Source: Isoetes taiwanensis
Taxonomy: Eukaryota; Streptophyta; Lycopodiopsida; Isoetales; Isoetaceae
Length of the DNA: 64,000 nucleotides
Direction: 5' to 3'
Assembly (NCBI GenBank): GCA_021234155.1
Contig: JAJEKV010000011.1
Location: 15,826,441 to 15,890,440, forward strand
The notes below the pieces were generated by a model. The model was not told the origin of the DNA and searched no databases. It saw only the letters and a list, made by a program, of their open reading frames with translations. Each line of letters opens with the position of its first letter. The stretch's first letter is position 1. The position numbers and the translations under genes were made by a program. This document shows, one piece after another, positions 55,664-64,000 of this stretch.

Positions 55664-55800
55664 GTGGCTGAGATGAATAGCATCGATCCGAGCCCTCGGA
55701 TTGTTATTCTGGGATGGGACGAGTAGCTATATATATGCTCGTCCTTCTTGTGGCTCGGTTATCGGCGTCTTCTCACAGCAGCATTTCTTTCCTTGTCCAT
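55664..55800 (+). repeat. Tail-to-head junction of the hairpin-headed element, diverged
   Basis: GCTGAGATGAAT (element 3' end) is followed after two bases by CATC and the stem GATCCGA-GCCC-TCGGATT, with a terminal G-T wobble. A shortened head follows, ending TTCTCACAGCAGCA. It then joins gypsy integrase sequence near 55830. Confidence 0.6.
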
Positions 55801-55829
55801 TGCTTCCCTCATGTCTTATCATCTACAGT

Positions 55830-56772
55830 AAGAGGGAAAGATGCCTTGATGGTTGTGGTCGACAAGTTGTCGAAGATGGCGCACTTTGTGCCTTGCAGGA
55901 CCACTGAGACAGCCATGGATACCGCGAAGCTCTTCACCAAGGAAATCTTCAGGCTCCATGGCATGCCAAGAGAAATCATCTCCGACAGAGATCCAAAGTT
56001 CATGAGGGCCTTTTGGCAAGATCTTTTTGCGACGATTCAGACGAAGCTGTCCATGAGCATGGCCTATCATCCTCAGACGGATGGGCAAATAGAAAGGACC
56101 AACAGAATTTTGGAAGATATGCTATGAAACTATGTCTAGCACTTGGTGGAGTTCGCTTATAGTAGCACCAAGCAGGAATCATCCCAGATGTCGCCGTTCA
56201 TGATCAACTACGGCTACCAATGTTTAACTCCAGACACTTGGCACAATCCCGTGTCAAAGGTAGAGGTTTCTCAGCAAATGTTGGCCGACATGCAGCATCT
56301 GGTAGAAGAGGTCTGAGGATATCTTCTCGCAGCAAGGAGTCGACAAAAGAGCATCGCCGACAAGCATTGGACGATCAGAGAGTTCCAAGTTGGCGACAAC
56401 GTTTGGCTCAAGATCAAAGTGAAGCAGGCGAAGCTCCGCATCGAAAATTGTAAGCAGCTTGCTCTAAGGTGGGCTGGACCTTTCAGAATAGCCAAGAGAG
56501 TAGGTAACCAATCCTACAAGTTAGAGCTGCCAGCACACCTGAAAATTCATAAAGTCTTCCACGTGAGTTTGTTGAAGAAGCATACTCCAAATCCAGATGA
56601 AGTCTTGGACACTCCAACGTTGTTGGAAATGACGGAAGAGCAGCTGGAGATAGTTCCAGAATTGATTCTTGATAAAGCTTTCAAGAAAACAAGGAGATCA
56701 GAGTTTCTCCAATATTTGATCAAGTGGAAACACTTGCGGTGGAAGACGCGACATGGGTACTTAAGAAGGGGG
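55830..56772 (+). pseudogene. Ty3/gypsy integrase and chromodomain-like C-terminus
   Basis: The reading covers the integrase catalytic core and tail: VVVDKLSKMAHFVPC (first Asp), ISDRDPKF (second Asp), AYHPQTDGQIERTNR (catalytic Glu), LRWAGPFRIAKRVGN (GPY/F-like module), HKVFHVSLLKK, and a chromodomain-like end (ILDKAF... EDATWVLKKG). Integrase would insert the cDNA; chromodomains target chromatin. In-frame stops lie at about 56125 and 56140, another near 56310, and a frameshift near 56735. Protease, RT and RNase H are absent, so this is a 5'-truncated remnant. Confidence 0.88.
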
Positions 56773-56790
56773 TGAAAGCATGTTGTAGCG
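56763..56790 (+). promoter_or_regulatory. Polypurine tract and probable start of a 3' LTR
   Basis: AAGAAGGGGG directly follows the chromodomain codons and is followed by TG (TGAAAGCATGTTG). This is the arrangement of a plus-strand primer site next to a 3' LTR. The LTR end is not resolved. Confidence 0.5.
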
Positions 56791-56945
56791 GAACAAAAAC
56801 GTGCATTTTAGCACCACATTTTTGGGTGCTAAGTGTGGTGGGAACTACCGAATTTGTAGTGGGAGAAGGAATTATTTTTTCAAAAATACACATGATTACT
56901 TATTCAAAATTTTGTCCTTTCAGTCTTATTCAGCAACGTACACGA

Positions 56946-57077
56946 TCATTTTCCCTCAAAAACTCTGATCACGCTCCCTTAATCCGGCAAGACCATTTCT
57001 GATTCTGAATTTTCATTTTCCCTCAAAAACTCTGATCACGCTCCCTTAATCCGCCAAGACCATTTCTGATTTCTGGC
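56946..57077 (+). repeat. 67-bp tandem duplication
   Basis: TCATTTTCCCTCAAAAACTC through AGACCATTTCTGATT occurs at 56946 and 57013. It lies within the putative LTR or just before the next gene. Confidence 0.85.
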
Positions 57078-57095
57078 AAGAAGATCGATCACGAA

Positions 57096-60032
57096 ATGGC
57101 TCTGATCATACCGGACTTGAATGCCACGGGATACACCTACAAGGAAATGTACAGGCAAGAAAAGCATTACGCCACACAAGAAGAAATCGAGTCTATTTGG
57201 GGACCGAAAGTATTAGGAAAATCCACTTACAGGTGGGTTGCATTCTAGATTCGGGGATGCCCATGATTCTCTGTTGTTTAGAATATTGTTTTGTTTCATC
57301 ATGCAGGTTGAAGAATCTGAGCAAGGAGAGGTATAATGAATATATGTGCCTTTACAAAAAAATCACAGGCGGGGGAAGTGTGCACGGGGAGGCATGGCCT
57401 CACAGACTATGGCTGTTGCGTATTACCTTCACACAAAAGGAAAAGAAATAAACTGGTTGAGTTTCTGGCAACAGTTAAGAGAAAAAGGGTCTGAAGACTC
57501 TCCGTCCCAACGTAAGAGGAAGCATGCAAGCATTTCAAATAGTGTGGAAGCAAAGCAACCTGCCACAGATGATGCTTCCTCTCTTGAAATGACTAGGCCA
57601 CAATTCAAGCCTCCTCAAGCTGTAAGAAGAATCTCGGGGAAAATCACTGAAAAAATAGGTACTTTTCAACCCTCTTCTTCTGGAACCACCATATGATGCA
57701 ATTTAATATTGGAACTGTTATTTTCCAAAAGGTCTAGCAAGCTTGAACAATCGTGTACACCACTTACTTCTTCATTTGGATGTGTTGTGAGTTATGTGTA
57801 GGAAATTTGTCTTTGCTAGTTTCGAAGTTGTGGTGGATAATTTCAGTTCCGCGAGTATGTAGCTCCAAATGTGTTACAGGACAGTCATATGGTGCCAAGT
57901 ACATGTTAATAATGTAGTTTGTAGCATATGTAGTGTCACATATAGTACCAAACAATGGTACCTTATCTGAATAGTGAATTGGCTTCCATATGTTTCTATA
58001 CTTAGTGTCATATGTGATGTTAGATATGGTGATACTTGTGAATGGTGGATTGTCCGCCATATGTGGTGCCAATCGCTGCGCTAAATATTGCACCACGCTA
58101 TATCCGCCACATATGGGGTGGTGGATGCCCCCGCCGGATGTGGTGCCTTCTTTGCATTGTGGTGCCACATGTGGTGTCTAATGTGGCACCACTATGGATC
58201 CACATTTTGCACCACATGTGGTGTCTTTGACGCCATTTGTGGTGCGGCAATAATGGATTGCCATATGTGGTGCCTTGGGTGCATTGTGGTGCCATAGGTG
58301 GTGTGTCATGTGGCACCGGTTTGATGCCACATGCCACACCACATGTGGTGAATATGACGCCACCCCTGGTGCCACATGCCACACCACATATGGTGAATAT
58401 GACGCCATTTGTGGTGCAAAGTTTGTCATGATGGAATTTGTGGTGTGTAAAGTGGTGCCTGTTGTGTCATGTGGTACTAACCTTGGATTACTTTCCGGTT
58501 GAATTCAACAGACACCGGGAGAATGGATCAACTCTACAAGATCGAAGTGATTCGGTGTAAGGCAAGATCGGTGATTCGGTGTAAGTCCGCTTTCGACCTC
58601 TTGAGGTACTTCATAACAAAATTCCTCGGTGCTTAGTATAATTGTATTCTCATTGACAAATTTATGTTCTCTTTGCGGGATTTGCAATCAACATTGCATT
58701 GAGAATTGCTGTCATGAATTTTCTACAGCATGGGTACAAGCCTTAGGTGTGAGTAGGGAGGATCAAAAGCAACTTCAAGCTACTGAGGCACTTACAGGTG
58801 AGCACTTATAGGTAGCTTAGTTTACATGCTAAGGGCCTGATGTAAGGGACAGATGCCAATTAGGATTAGTGGACTTCCTAATCTTTCACCCTGGCTTAGT
58901 CTCTTTCGTTTGTCCTGTTTGATGTGTCTAATTTGCCCCCTAGGATGAGGTCGCTCACTCATTTTAGGTGGCGAATTAGATACATCAAGCAGGAAACTCG
59001 AAATGAGAGTAAGCCTGGCTTAGTCTCCTTCGTTTTCTGTTTGCTGTATCTAATTTGCCCCCTAGGATGACATCGCTCACTCAGGTGGCGAATTAGATAC
59101 ATCAAGCAGGAAACTCGAAAAGGGAGTAAGCCCGACATAAAACAAGATCCTGGCTGGCTTAGTCTCTTTTGCTTCTCCTGTTTTGTGTATCTAAAGTGCC
59201 CCCTGGGATTGCTGAATGCGGATTGCTGAATGCAGTCACCAATACCATCTTCCATGTCTGCTCAGCCTCTTGAGGTACTTCATAACAAAATTCCTGAAGT
59301 GCTTAGTATAATTGTATTCTCATTGACAAATTTGCGTTCTCTTTACAGGATTTGCAATCACTGTTGCATTGAGAATTGCTGTCATGAAGTTTCTACAGCA
59401 TGGGTACAAGCCTTAGGTGTGAGTAGGGAGGATCAAAAGCAACTTCAAGCTACTGAGGCACTTACAGGTGAGCACTTATAGGTAGCTTAGTTTACATGCT
59501 AAGGGCACGATGTAAGGACAGATACATCAAGCGAGGAAACTTCGAAAAGAGAGTAAGCCCGGCTTAGTCTCCTTTTTTTTTCTGCTTATGTATCTAATTT
59601 GCCCCTAGGATGACATATCGCCACTCGGTGGCTTAATTAGATACATCAAGCGAAACTCGAAAAAGGAGTAAGCCCGACATAAAACAAGATCCCGGGCTGG
59701 CTTAGTCTCTTTTGCTTCTCCCCGCTTTGTGTATCTAAAGTGCCAAGTCAAGTCAAGCTCCGATGGGTGCTCTAACCGACAACAATCTGCCAGATCGGCA
59801 GATGCATTAAGTCATGCTCCACACCAATCGCCAAATCCAGATGCTTCGTGTTATGATCCGAACAAATCGTTTGGTGAATGTAAGTCACAAGGTAACTTCC
59901 AACCTTTTGTGCCCGTCTTCTTTTTAATTTGACCCATATAGTTACCGAATCACATTAAATTTTTGCAGGTTTGGAAGTGTCTCGGAGAAAAAGCAAGAGC
60001 AGATTTCAAGCAAAAGACACCTCCAAGACATT
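57096..60032 (+). CDS. Forward multi-exon frame of the 57-64 kb transposon-like block
   Basis: Exon 1 (57096-57232) starts MALIIPDLNATGYTYKEMY and joins in phase over a GT-AG intron to exon 2 at 57307 (LKNLSKERYNEYMCLYKK). Exon 2 then needs a frame change near 57370 to continue as MASQTMAVAYYLHTKGKEIN and a Ser/Lys-rich tail to about 57690. Further exon-like pieces are 59350-59467 (Cys/His-rich, ICNHCCIENCCHE, after TTTACAG and before GTGAGC), about 59740-59900 and 59970-60032 (after TTTTTGCAG, stop TGA). I do not recognise the product. Its position suggests an accessory or DNA-binding protein. The exon chain after exon 2 is tentative. Confidence 0.35.
57880..58475. repeat. Palindromic CCACATGTGGTG array
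   Basis: Many irregularly spaced copies of CACCACATGTGGTG and relatives (GTGGTGCCACATGTGGTG, GCCATATGTGGTGCC, ATATGACGCCA) fill the region, densest from 58040. Because the core is self-complementary, frames open on all strands; none is a gene. Similar motifs recur at 60485-60555, 61555-61640 and, as CACCACACTAGGCACCACA, at 63775-64000. Confidence 0.85.
58607..58850 (+). repeat. Exon-containing duplication, copy 1 (acceptor lost)
   Basis: Matches 59262-59510. The putative acceptor reads CTTTGCGG here against CTTTACAG in copy 2, so only copy 2 would splice. Confidence 0.8.
58880..59165. repeat. Foldback units, two in tandem
   Basis: Each unit of about 130 bp pairs GGCTTAGTCTC, CCTGTTTGATG and TCTAATTTGCCCCCTA with GGTGGCGAATTAGATACATC, AAGCAGGAAACTCG and GAGAGTAAGCC. 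Arms are about 48 bp with a loop of about 25 bp (AGGATGAGGTCGCTCACTCA). A third unit lies at 59515-59745. Confidence 0.8.
59262..59510 (+). repeat. Exon-containing duplication, copy 2
   Basis: Second copy of 58607-58850, 655 bp downstream, with an intact acceptor and donor around the Cys/His-rich exon. Confidence 0.8.
59515..59745. repeat. Foldback unit, third copy, degraded
   Basis: Same arms as at 58880-59165 with several short deletions (for example GATACATCAAGCGAAACTCG). Confidence 0.7.
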
Positions 60033-60484
60033 CTGAAGCATATATGTGTCTTGCTATATGTGTCTTTGTAAAGCATGTTGTGGCTGCAGTATCTGAGGCT
60101 TGGACATACTATCCCAATGCAAGGTGAGTTCATAAATTTGAAGGTATTACTCATCCAATGTGAGGCCTGATATGTTTGTTGCGGGGTGTACCAATTTCTA
60201 GTTCTTGAAGCTGTTGGACACGCTGAATGATGATTGATGTTGTGAAGCCGCGATTCTTTGTAGTAATGAAGTCGAGGTTGACAGATCAATAGATCTTTAC
60301 TTGTAATCACATGTTTGTATTATTGTAACCAAAGAGGTTATTCTTGTAACCTATTCTTTCATTGACACTCTAATGTACATTGTTGTATACTATTGTATAC
60401 AATAGACTTTTCTGGCTGACCAGAGCAACACTCTGGTGGAGTTCAAATCTCCAGAAGAAATTGATGTATTCAAAGATTCATGAC

Positions 60485-60560
60485 AATGTGGTGTTACATG
60501 TCGTGAATGTGGTGTTACAATGTGGTATTACAATGTGGTGTTACATGTCATTCCTGTGGG
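60485..60560 (+). repeat. ATGTGGTGTTACA short array
   Basis: Four copies of ATGTGGTRTTACA in 70 bp, related to the CACATGTGGTG motif, at the 3' edge of the antisense ORF. Confidence 0.8.
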
Positions 60561-61403
60561 TCTATCAAAAAGAGATCTGGGTCCAGCTCCTCCTCGTCAT
60601 CTTCTATGATCACCAGATCAGTGGCCACCGGGTCAGCTTCCCAGCCTATTTGCTCCCATTCTGGAGGGAAAGCAAAAAACCATAATGGTGGAGTGTTACC
60701 AAACAGAATAGCAGCTTCTCCATGTCCATCCTGCAAGGCCTTGTGATGATAGTACATATCCCTGGAAGTGAAGGAATTGGTCCTCATGAAACAACCTATC
60801 ATAACAAAAGAGGAACCTGTTTAGCGTAAAGGCTTGGTAGCCATTAAGCAGAAAAGGTCTCAACCTTTGCAGATCCTGGTCAATAGTATGAGGAACGGGC
60901 CAAAGATGCTGGTGTGTAAAAATTTCAGTGGAGGCAGAGTAAGTTGAGAGGTCTGGGAACTGTGGTGTACAATTCAACCTCTTGGTGAGAGTTTTCAGCA
61001 TTTCTGTGGTCATATTCTCATCCGGTGAATAGAGTAATTTCTGTATCCTGAGCATGTCCATCCATTCTGCATGGCTGAAAATCGGGACAACACGCCTATG
61101 TATTATGGGCTCTTCTTCTCTGGTCACATTGTCCCATTCCTAAGCACTCCATCGCTTTTCAAAGATCCAAGAGGTGAAGTTGGCCATGTCTGCCAGCTGT
61201 AGTAGCCTTCTTTGTAAGCTATAAATCAGAAAACGCTTCCCACCCAACATAACCAGTAAAGCGAAAACCGCTTCCCAAGGACCTCGCTTTTTGTAAAACG
61301 CCCTCGCTCCCGAATCGCTGTAATAAATCAGAAACTCGGTCGGGAGCAAGAAGAATGGCATCTCGGGCCTTTTGGGTTGCCCGAGGTCATTAATTTTTGC
61401 CAT
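60548..61403 (-). pseudogene. Antisense accessory ORF of the transposon-like block
   Basis: From ATG 61403 (MAKINDLGQPKRPEMPFFLL) the frame is open to 60696 apart from one TAG at 61140-61142. A frame change at about 60750 continues it to 60548, ending in an acidic tail (IIEDDEEELDPDLFLIDPQE). The total would be about 285 residues. It contains hydrophobic and basic stretches (WEAVFALLVMLGGKRFLIYS) and no domain I know. The single stop and single shift in an otherwise long open frame suggest recent decay or sequence error. It is divergent from nothing obvious but lies antisense and 3' to the transposase-like ORF on the same strand. Confidence 0.5.
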
Positions 61404-61554
61404 CCCATAATGATTTTTGGGTACGGCTGTCAGCCAAAGGATGATGAGAGGAATTGATGGGATCGAGAGAATTTAAGGAAAAGGAAAGTATTTCAGTAGA
61501 AAAGCTGTTCAGAAGGATCTATCTGTGTCAGGAGAAGAGACAGAAAGTGAAACA

Positions 61555-61642
61555 CGTGGTGAAACATGTAGTGAAACACATGTGTCACCACATGTGGTGA
61601 AACACATGTGGTGAAATACATGTGGTGAAACATGTGGTGAAC
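61555..61642. repeat. CACATGTGGTGAAA array
   Basis: Five tandem variants of CACATGTGGTGAAA(CA/TA) separate the two minus-strand genes. They are perfect palindromes at CACATGTG. Confidence 0.85.
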
Positions 61643-61859
61643 CTGGGGCATGTTACATCAGGGACATCAAAATACAATTACATATTACATCAGAAGCAAA
61701 CATATTACATTGAAACAAGGGACATCAAAATACAATTGAGCAAGGAATTGAGTTTCTTATATTATTCCCAAACAAGGCAAGACACAACAACATATTCAAA
61801 ATTTCTGAATCATTTCCTAACCTGTAAGAATGTGTTCAGCTATTCTTCATCAGACATGC

Positions 61860-63745
61860 TATCTTCATCAGATAAAACCTCGGGCAAGTTTTCTAGAATC
61901 TTTTCCTCATCTGCCTTGGTCTAGCACAGAAACGATTCGAGCACCTTTCTTGATCTGCTGCATGGGAACTCGAATAGCACAAATTTGAGTAGAGAATACA
62001 AGTGACTTTTACTCGTTTGTCAACAACTCATACATCACCTTTGACCGAGGCTTCTTTCTATAGTAAATGCCCTCCACAACGGTTTCACCTCTCATAAACA
62101 AGTTTCCGCTTACTTTGAAGTCATTTTCAACTTCAAATTTTGGCTTGGTGCATAGCAACATCCAAAATACGTAATCCTCCTCGTTCCCTTTAGGTGCAAA
62201 GAACCGCAAAGTCGCTCCTTCTCTAAGTGCTTCGCAAGTACATTTTGCCAAGGTTGAGTATAGTGGCTCCGGGTAGACTTGCGGGTCTCTTCCACATCCG
62301 CATGAACATTGGAGGATGGTTCAACGACTACAAGGTCCCATTCATCTACATACAATTCGTTCTCACACATGTCCCATTTTCCATCCAAACAATTGCTTTG
62401 CAAAAACATGATAGCTTTACGGTATGTAGTCGTGTTGGATTTCCGTCTTGAATCCATGGACTGAATGAATTTGCACTGGTTTAAGGAATTGTCTCTCGCA
62501 CCCCAAGCCTTTTTCCCCGTTGATATCCTCGGGTTTTATTTCCCGGTATCTCCTCAACTTTTCTTCCATTTTCAGTCCACTCGGATGTACCACATTGAAA
62601 TTGTTTCTCTGCAATTTTCACCACATCAATGGCATTATCTAGTTTAATGTCAGGATGTTTAAGCTGTAGACCTCGTATCCATCTTTTCAATTCTGCTGCC
62701 TTCCCATCATGTTCACCTTTTCCATGGTTTGATCCAAAGAAGTTCCACATCATGTTGACCTCTCAGATCACAACCGTACCTTCCAACAAAATAAAATGAT
62801 CTGGCTGCTTTGAATTGTGATGCAGCACCATCTGAAAATATATAGTGCTGTTTGGGGACATTGCCTTTCTGCTTTAAGTACTCAAAATGTTTCATAAAAC
62901 AATGTTGAACAAAAAGAGTGTCATGTTCCCTATCATCCGACACATAGTAGTGTGTTTCCTTCTCAATGGTGTTCAATGCGTGGATCAACCCGATAGGTTA
63001 TTTGAACAAATATAGTTATCGGTTGTTGACCCAAATAAGATGGACCGAACTTCATTCTGCTCCTTAAAAGTATAATTCTCTGCTGAAGTCAACCACGGAT
63101 AGATAAGCATCTCGGTGCAAGTTATCAAGGAGTTCTTTGTACCGGCCCGCCGCCACTTATATATCCGAAGTTGTGTAAAGGAAAATTTGGAAGCTTCTCC
63201 AACATTTTGTTCACCGATGGAAGACTTGCGGTTTCATTGTGTTGGTGAACGAGCTTAGACTTCTTCGCCATCTCTGAATCTGCTTTTTTCATAGTCTAGG
63301 TATTCCCACTTCACCATGCCACTATCACTAGATTGTTCATGTGGGCGGATAGGGAACTTCTTAATCCCACACTCTTTACACTCACCCGTAATGCATTCCC
63401 TCTTATGGTAAGGTTGGAAGCTAGTTTTCTCACATAAAATTCCACGCCACGACTTCTTGTGCTACTTATTTTGTATTCGGGCATCCGCATTCACCATATA
63501 TGTCCGACCAAAAAGTCGACAAGTCTGTTTCGCGACTTTTTGGGTGCTTAGTTCTCATACTATTGAAGCCATCTATTAGCATCCGCATTCTAACATGGTA
63601 TATATCTGGCAGAAGAACTATTGAAGTCCTTTAATTTTACAACAAACCATGGTTTCAACTTTTCAAACATCCTCTGTTTGATCATAACACTAGGATGTTC
63701 CGTCTTGAATTTCTGAACAATTGCAAATGCAAGGAAGATAACAAG
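61860..63745 (-). pseudogene. RNase-H-fold transposase-like protein (SDG..QFK / HGKG..DG family), frameshifted
   Basis: Read on the minus strand across several frames, in order: FKTEHPSVMIKQRMFEKLKP (about 63710); RYHVRMRMLIDGFN (about 63590); a Cys knuckle KRECITGECKECGIKKF (about 63380); VKWEYLDYEKSRF; ENYTFKEQNEVRSI (about 63060); then the open frame 62988-62713 with YYVSDDREHDTLFVQHCF and HYIFSDGAASQFKAARSFYF; then 62753-62481 with MMWNFFGSNHGKGEHDGKAA; then further C-terminal frames to 62009; and an acidic end DEDSMSDEE near 61863. The order SDD..HD, SDG..SQFK, W.FF...HGKG..DG matches from memory a family common in invertebrate and plant genomes, usually unnamed. The acidic residues fit a DDE/RNase-H-type core. 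At least five frame changes make this copy non-functional as written. Confidence 0.62.
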
Positions 63746-63774
63746 GTGATCGAAGATATTTATTGCACACTACA

Positions 63775-64000
63775 TTTTCTACCACACTAGGCACCACATA
63801 GCATATATTACGGACATTCATCTTACACCTCCTTATTCACCACACTAGGCACCACAACGCATATATTACATAATTTATTGTACACCATATTTTTCACCAC
63901 ACTAGGCACCACATAGCATATATTACGGACATTTCATCTTACACCTCGTTATTCACCACACTAGGCACCACATAGAATATATTACAGATTCATTTTACAC
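63775..64000 (+). repeat. About 60-bp tandem repeat running off the window
   Basis: Four units begin at about 63780, 63838, 63898 and 63956. Each has CACCACACTAGGCACCACA, GCATATATTAC and a T-rich spacer with TTACACC. The array lies directly upstream of the transposase-like gene and probably continues. Confidence 0.85.

Follow-up and report, generated by a model that had tools for sequence, protein, structure and literature searches.

The window (the whole stretch of 64,000 bp analyzed here, G000:C919:15826441-15890440, from a 1.66-Gb genome) ends inside a DNA transposon, the features of which are collected in Table 1. A frameshifted transposase gene and a second reading frame, ORF2, are located on the minus strand. 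Remnants of a companion gene are located on the plus strand, and arrays of short motifs are distributed between and beside these genes. The original prediction, that the transposase-like gene serves a multi-gene mobile element as its transposase, agrees with the finding that one element encloses the two ORFs, the forward gene and the arrays. The span proposed for it, 60548-64000, was too short; the true ends lie at 56770 and at the equivalent of 65438, past the window. The predicted forward gene belongs to the element and corresponds to the companion gene, but only a wreck of that gene is left in the window.

Table 1. Features of the transposon and its borders, in window positions. Positions beyond 64000 are given as equivalents in the adjoining sequence (L009).
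Feature	Position	Strand	Basis or remark
Left target-site duplication AAGG	56766..56769	.	Other copy at L009:1439-1442, past the window
Transposon	56770..64000, plus 1438 bp past the window to L009:1438 (equivalent of 65438); total 8669 bp	.	Paired inverted ends, target duplication, empty site
26-bp terminal inverted repeat, far end, GGGTGAAAGCATG...	56770..56795	+	Partner is the equivalent of 65413-65438 in L009
Companion-gene remnant, first exons (the predicted forward gene)	57114..57654 (57114-57233, 57302-57388, 57388-57654)	+	tblastn with L016 proteins, E 4e-7 and 8e-19
TGTGGTG / palindromic CACATGTGGTG array near far end	58058..58445	.
Companion-gene remnant, end of coiled-coil / RING-like segment	59222..59275	+	tblastn, 18 aa, E 2e-4
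Companion-gene remnant, linker upstream of NIF domain	59780..59929	+	tblastn, 86% over 51 aa, E 5e-24
Companion-gene remnant, C-terminal end of Ulp1-like protease	60008..60126	+	tblastn, E 5e-5
Short TGTGGTG array adjoining ORF2	60487..60540	.
ORF2, protein with acidic C-terminal tail, frameshifted	60551..61472	-	tblastn, 70-74% to L012 ORF2, best E 2e-115
Palindromic CACATGTGGTG array between ORF2 and transposase	61552..61640	.
Transposase main exon, frameshifted	61843..63673	-	Acidic motifs 62481-62997, acidic tail near 61843-61902; tblastn to L010 and L013; hhalign of intact relatives to L063
58-bp CACCACA-rich minisatellite in transposase intron	63758..64000 (repeat 63758-63992)	.	Motif runs on to the equivalent of about 64230

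Element ends and copies in the genome

Eight loci were fetched. One of them (L009) continues the sequence past the window, and the others (L010-L016) cover 10 kb around each of seven further copies of the transposase. Alignment of other copies and extension beyond 64 kb had both been proposed as checks of the original prediction. When the copies are aligned in the orientation of the transposase, L011-L015 and that of the window begin at one common base of GGGTGAAAGCATG, a boundary shared by six loci with different flanks. Two loci are outside this set, namely L010, where the match begins later, and L016, which is a distant relative. The inverted partner of the GGGTGAAAGCATG end was found at position 56770 of the window and thus defines an element of 8669 bp, with AAGG as target duplication on both flanks. 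The 26-bp ends begin with GGGTG and form perfect inverted repeats in C30, C67 and C499; the terminal inverted repeats measure 18 bp in L015 and 13 bp in the window copy, where the first 13 bp of the two ends are identical.

A Ty3/gypsy element is split by the transposon (window 55681-56769 and L009:1439-2407), and an unbroken second copy of it is present at L009:8235-8835. The frames adjoining the insertion match the Pfam domains rve (32.7 bits, cut-off 32.6) and SH3_Tf2-1. Joined without one AAGG, the two flanks align to the unbroken copy at 591 of 604 positions (98%). The empty site is represented here by a further copy of the target stretch, as opposed to the corresponding locus of a different genome.

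The 26-bp end, with up to three mismatches, was detected 838 times genome-wide (426 forward and 412 reverse), and the reversed-pattern control gave none. Target duplications were compared in 21 elements with paired ends, that is, all 19 forward/reverse pairs less than 18 kb apart among the 100 end matches listed, together with L015 and the window copy. The duplication is exact over 4 bp in 20 of the 21, agrees in three of the four bases in the remaining one, and is never longer; mispaired-end controls yielded an exact 4-bp duplication in 2 of 420 cases. The element family has been mobile in the past. The outcome named beforehand as refuting the prediction, a family of conserved host genes that stay at their loci and do not move, is next to impossible: the end is present in 838 copies, both the ends and the target duplications are defined for 21 elements, and an empty site exists.

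The exact 13-bp end occurs in 2820 copies genome-wide (control 4). Nine forward/reverse pairs of this end, among the 100 matches listed, span 321-324 bp between their outer edges and point to small non-autonomous copies. A further copy of this kind, 309 bp long and flanked by a GGGA duplication, has the same 13-bp ends and is nested in a larger copy (L012:2261-2569). Long LINE-like frames, with endonuclease/reverse transcriptase recognized by eye, are inserted in the companion region of another locus (L013:8297-13956, extended locus coordinates), and an LRR-malectin protein, in keeping with a plant, adjoins L015. For the transposase itself, the best 150 matches were scored out of 5534 first-look candidates, and for the divergent type represented by L083 the best 150 out of 13385, both totals being rough counts.

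Transposase, ORF2 and repeat arrays

The three ordered acidic motifs predicted on the minus strand are present in broken frames, with YYVSDDREHDTLF and FSDGAASQFK in the frame 62713-62997 and MMWNFFGSNHGKGEHDG in the frame 62481-62762. Since the transposase reading frames are broken, the gene in the window is a pseudogene. Its N-terminal exon corresponds to the equivalent of 65317-64505, past the window. In fuller copies, the transposase gene consists of a basic N-terminal exon and a main exon, which contains a Cys-rich part as well as the three acidic motifs; the intron between them has the same donor, CAG/GTTA, in L010, L012 and L016. ORF2 with its acidic tail and then a short ORF3 follow on this strand. 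The Cys-rich region, recognized by eye upstream of the acidic motifs in relatives with longer open frames, answers to the predicted Cys knuckle. The acidic tail of the transposase and the second minus-strand ORF beside it, which also has an acidic tail, were likewise found as predicted. ORF2 has 151 matches in G000, some of them partial, and no match to ORF3 was obtained in the window copy by tblastn.

The motifs VDFAEN, SDGAASQFK and HGKGEHDG are in register across the aligned relatives and also with L063, a 4-kb contig (L063:1-4028) labelled bacterium isolate Cli_8. This contig encodes a 690-aa relative of the transposase, which was found by motif pattern in the GACGG form only; its hhalign alignment spans 291 columns (E 3.9e-18) and places the three Asp at corresponding positions. 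Judged by these motifs, the transposase is of the DDD type with three conserved acidic (Asp) sites. The gene in L063 is bracketed by a motif array of its own (GTGTTGGACRTACA, seven matches against 0.09 expected) and by 12-bp inverted repeats (GGGCAATTCCAT), for which no matching 4-bp duplication was seen. The relative looks eukaryotic despite the bacterial label, and possibly derives from host contamination of a metagenome bin. Viral contigs contained no transposase relatives according to a protein scan, an alignment scan and two motif patterns, and none of L063 either.

The Pfam search, another check proposed with the original prediction, gave no match reaching the cut-off for the transposase or ORF2, and NCBIfam gave none for the L063 relative. 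A PDB profile search returned matches only at E above 0.1, and two AlphaFold2 models of the transposase, in which an RNase H fold of the catalytic core was sought, had low confidence, with mean pLDDT of 32.9 and 35.5.

The predicted motif arrays are present, well above chance frequency. With at most one mismatch, the window contains 14 matches to CACATGTGGTG, where 1.1 would be expected, and all lie at 58058-58395 or 61586-61639. The 8669-bp element contains 49 copies of TGTGGTG, compared with 11 in the 56769 bp of the window that precede it, and CACCACA recurs in the 58-bp repeat of the intron. TGTGGTG counts are 91 in L016 and 64 in L061, compared with 0 in 10 kb of L083, and the arrays are thus confined to part of the clade. 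Between the far array and the linker of the companion gene, the element contains a 219-nt stretch repeated directly at 95% identity (58629-58847 and 59299-59517).

Constraint on the transposase was estimated from pairs of copies, with dS saturated in many between-family comparisons. The pN/pS of the window type was 0.17-0.21 against L016/L061, and values against L083 were 0.42-0.50. The dN/dS was 0.12 for L016/L061 and 0.53-0.57 for L010 against L012/L013, and the close copies L012/L013 gave 1.04 in the main exon and 0.52 in the N-terminal exon. We read this pattern as selection while the lineages were active, and as weaker or absent constraint on dead copies of recent origin.

The convergent companion gene

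On the opposite strand of fuller copies, the coding pieces begin near the far end with a lysine-rich stretch, followed by a segment with coiled-coil and RING-like features and then by the NIF and Ulp1 domains. From their order and strand, we infer that these pieces constitute one spliced gene. The NIF domain (PF03031, gathering score 21.8) was identified in L016 (56.4 bits), L061 (59.5), L082 (74.1) and L083 (78.2), with E from 4e-15 to 7e-22 across these four copies; tblastn gave no match to it in the window copy. The Peptidase_C48/Ulp1 domain (PF02902) exceeds its cut-off in L016 (22.5 bits against 20.7, E 1e-4). An Ulp1 fragment in L014 has no Pfam match and displays HW, FDS and QSDCWSCG by eye (His-Asp-Cys). 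Ulp1 was not found in L082 or L083. By these sequence features, the companion gene carries an Ulp1 protease in two subfamilies. The RING-like piece is below the Pfam cut-off (zf-RING_2 at 19.5 bits against 27.3 in L082, and 18 bits in L083), with Cys/His spacing that is RING-like by eye. RING-like Cys/His pieces with coiled-coil were also observed beside the NIF gene at L083:5583-6973, L083:9164-9754 and L082:5975-6688.

A NIF match is located within 15 kb of 33 of the 150 transposase matches listed, 32 of them convergent, and shifted controls gave 1, 0 and 0. The other 117 have no listed NIF within this distance, so that either many copies lack NIF or the best-match lists missed it. Ulp1 was found within 3 kb of 66 of the 150 NIF matches listed, always downstream and on the same strand (66/66; shifted control 0). 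Transposase and Ulp1 are within 15 kb of each other in 28 of the 150 listed, always on opposite strands (shifted control 1). As the lists hold only best matches, these linkage fractions are not rates. L082 and L083 were chosen as NIF loci from the Pfam list regardless of transposase, and both have a convergent transposase or a C-terminal piece of one. The transposase of the L083 type is 44-51% identical over 124-171 codons, and its element has inverted GGGTGTAAATATGG ends and a CAAA duplication, read by eye. Among the 150 Pfam NIF matches listed, 14 are near the 150 listed L083-type transposases and all 14 are convergent, with shifted controls of 0, 2 and 2. The convergent arrangement of transposase and companion gene is kept in a subfamily whose transposase is 44-51% identical.

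DxDx(T/V) is the catalytic motif required for FCP/SCP-type phosphatase action. Among 18 NIF loci fetched, DxD is present in six, and the other twelve have DxNG (eleven) or YxNG (one). Members of the window's own subfamily have YxNG in L012, C499 and C30, and DxNG in C67. Because the motif is mostly DxNG and not DxDx(T/V), the NIF domain of the companion may be a pseudo-phosphatase. Several high-scoring NIF matches are clustered at 22.9-26.8 Mb of C1018 in G000 and perhaps represent a tandem host phosphatase family; the one NIF locus fetched from this contig (L077, 39.6 Mb) has DxNG. A literature search on NIF, Ulp1 or RING with transposons found no title or abstract opening that names a transposon with a NIF gene.

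Classification and possible role of the companion gene

Plant MULE (Kaonashi) elements are DNA transposons with an Ulp1-type cysteine protease. Their transposase differs from that of the present element, and we know of no NIF domain in them. CACTA elements generate target duplications of 2-3 bp. Those of MULE elements measure 7-12 bp according to the passage cited (PMC10741241). Membership in MULE or CACTA does not fit the 4-bp duplication, none longer, in 20 of the 21 elements. Ginger membership is opposed by the Pfam search, in which neither the transposase nor L063 matched rve (Gypsy-integrase-like); the flanking gypsy frame does match it.

Sola elements, in the passages cited, share with the present one a DDD transposase, a 4-bp duplication and inverted ends, include elements of more than 15 kb, and occur in a moss (Sola1, Physcomitrella) (PMC10741241, PMC9033089, PMC3627910). 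The superfamily is described as seemingly uncommon in flowering plants (PMC10741241). The convergent NIF-Ulp1-RING-like companion gene and the TGTGGTG arrays are unlike Sola. Accessory genes are described for two Sola groups. The giant Sola-1 element of the brown alga Ectocarpus, Sola1-1_Ec32 (21.5 kb), also has an accessory gene opposite the transposase strand, whose protein has ParB-like and DNA methyltransferase domains, whereas here a NIF fold and, in two subfamilies, Ulp1 are present (PMC12477816). Dictyostelid Sola2 elements with Fanzor1 share a Sola-type transposase, ends of 12-21 bp, 4-bp duplications and a companion gene, but that companion is Fanzor (TnpB-like) and the duplications are AT-rich, whereas those here are more mixed (PMC3627910).

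Likened to these descriptions by its 4-bp duplication and DDD signature, the transposon is quite probably Sola-type. The assignment of the protein to a mostly unnamed family in the original prediction is therefore probably wrong, as the features fit the named Sola superfamily by description, not by homology. The same kind of transposon from a superfamily other than Sola, either an undescribed DDD/E one or Ginger, Academ or Chapaev with duplications of about 4 bp, is rather improbable. Duplications of 4 bp occur in several transposon superfamilies and are not confined to one, which leaves room for such an origin, as do the missing Pfam and NCBIfam matches and a likeness drawn from description and not from Sola sequence. 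It is opposed by the cited description of Sola as DDD elements with 4-bp duplications, some over 15 kb, in a moss (PMC10741241), by the lack of the rve-type integrase match that Ginger would give, and by the Ectocarpus Sola-1 with its opposite-strand accessory gene (PMC12477816). Our reading, at a probability of roughly 0.8, is that the locus is a defective copy, 8.67 kb long, from a large and highly amplified family of cut-and-paste transposons that most likely belongs to the Sola superfamily and has a convergent companion gene.

The window copy is dead, internally deleted and frameshifted, and is thus not an autonomous element; since its frames are broken and NIF gave no match, it could be mobilized in trans only. 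In the mechanism we propose for the family, the transposase would bind the inverted ends and probably the TGTGGTG arrays, its three-Asp RNase H-type site would cut the element out, and insertion would proceed through a 4-bp staggered cut. The small copies, roughly 0.3 kb long, share the 13-bp end and would be moved in trans. The companion protein would be retained because it helps the element, and would most plausibly act on host chromatin or transcription factors controlled by SUMO, ubiquitin or phosphorylation, or on the transposase itself.

The companion could also be a captured host gene, a Pack-MULE-like passenger without a role in transposition, which we consider somewhat unlikely. The 117 of 150 listed transposase matches without NIF within 15 kb, the stop codons inside the match in part of the NIF copies, the degenerate catalytic motif and the lower constraint on NIF than on the transposase (L016/L061 dN/dS 0.43 against 0.12) would suit a passenger, but the convergent arrangement persists across subfamilies with 44-51% identical transposases, many NIF copies can be read through the full match without a stop, and DxNG is common to 11 of the 12 fetched NIF loci without DxD.

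As a tentative proposal, this would be a very successful Sola-type lineage in a plant-like genome, with a core second gene whose product unites the NIF phosphatase fold, the Ulp1 SUMO protease and a RING-like finger. That protein would edit marks of SUMO, ubiquitin or phosphorylation carried by the transposase or by silencing or transcription factors of the host, and would thereby allow the element to move. Sola is, in our view, among the least studied transposon superfamilies, and the companion may help such an element to move or to evade the host. If it works, the companion would represent a transposon-borne kit against host protein marks and offer a testable model of how DNA transposons escape silencing.
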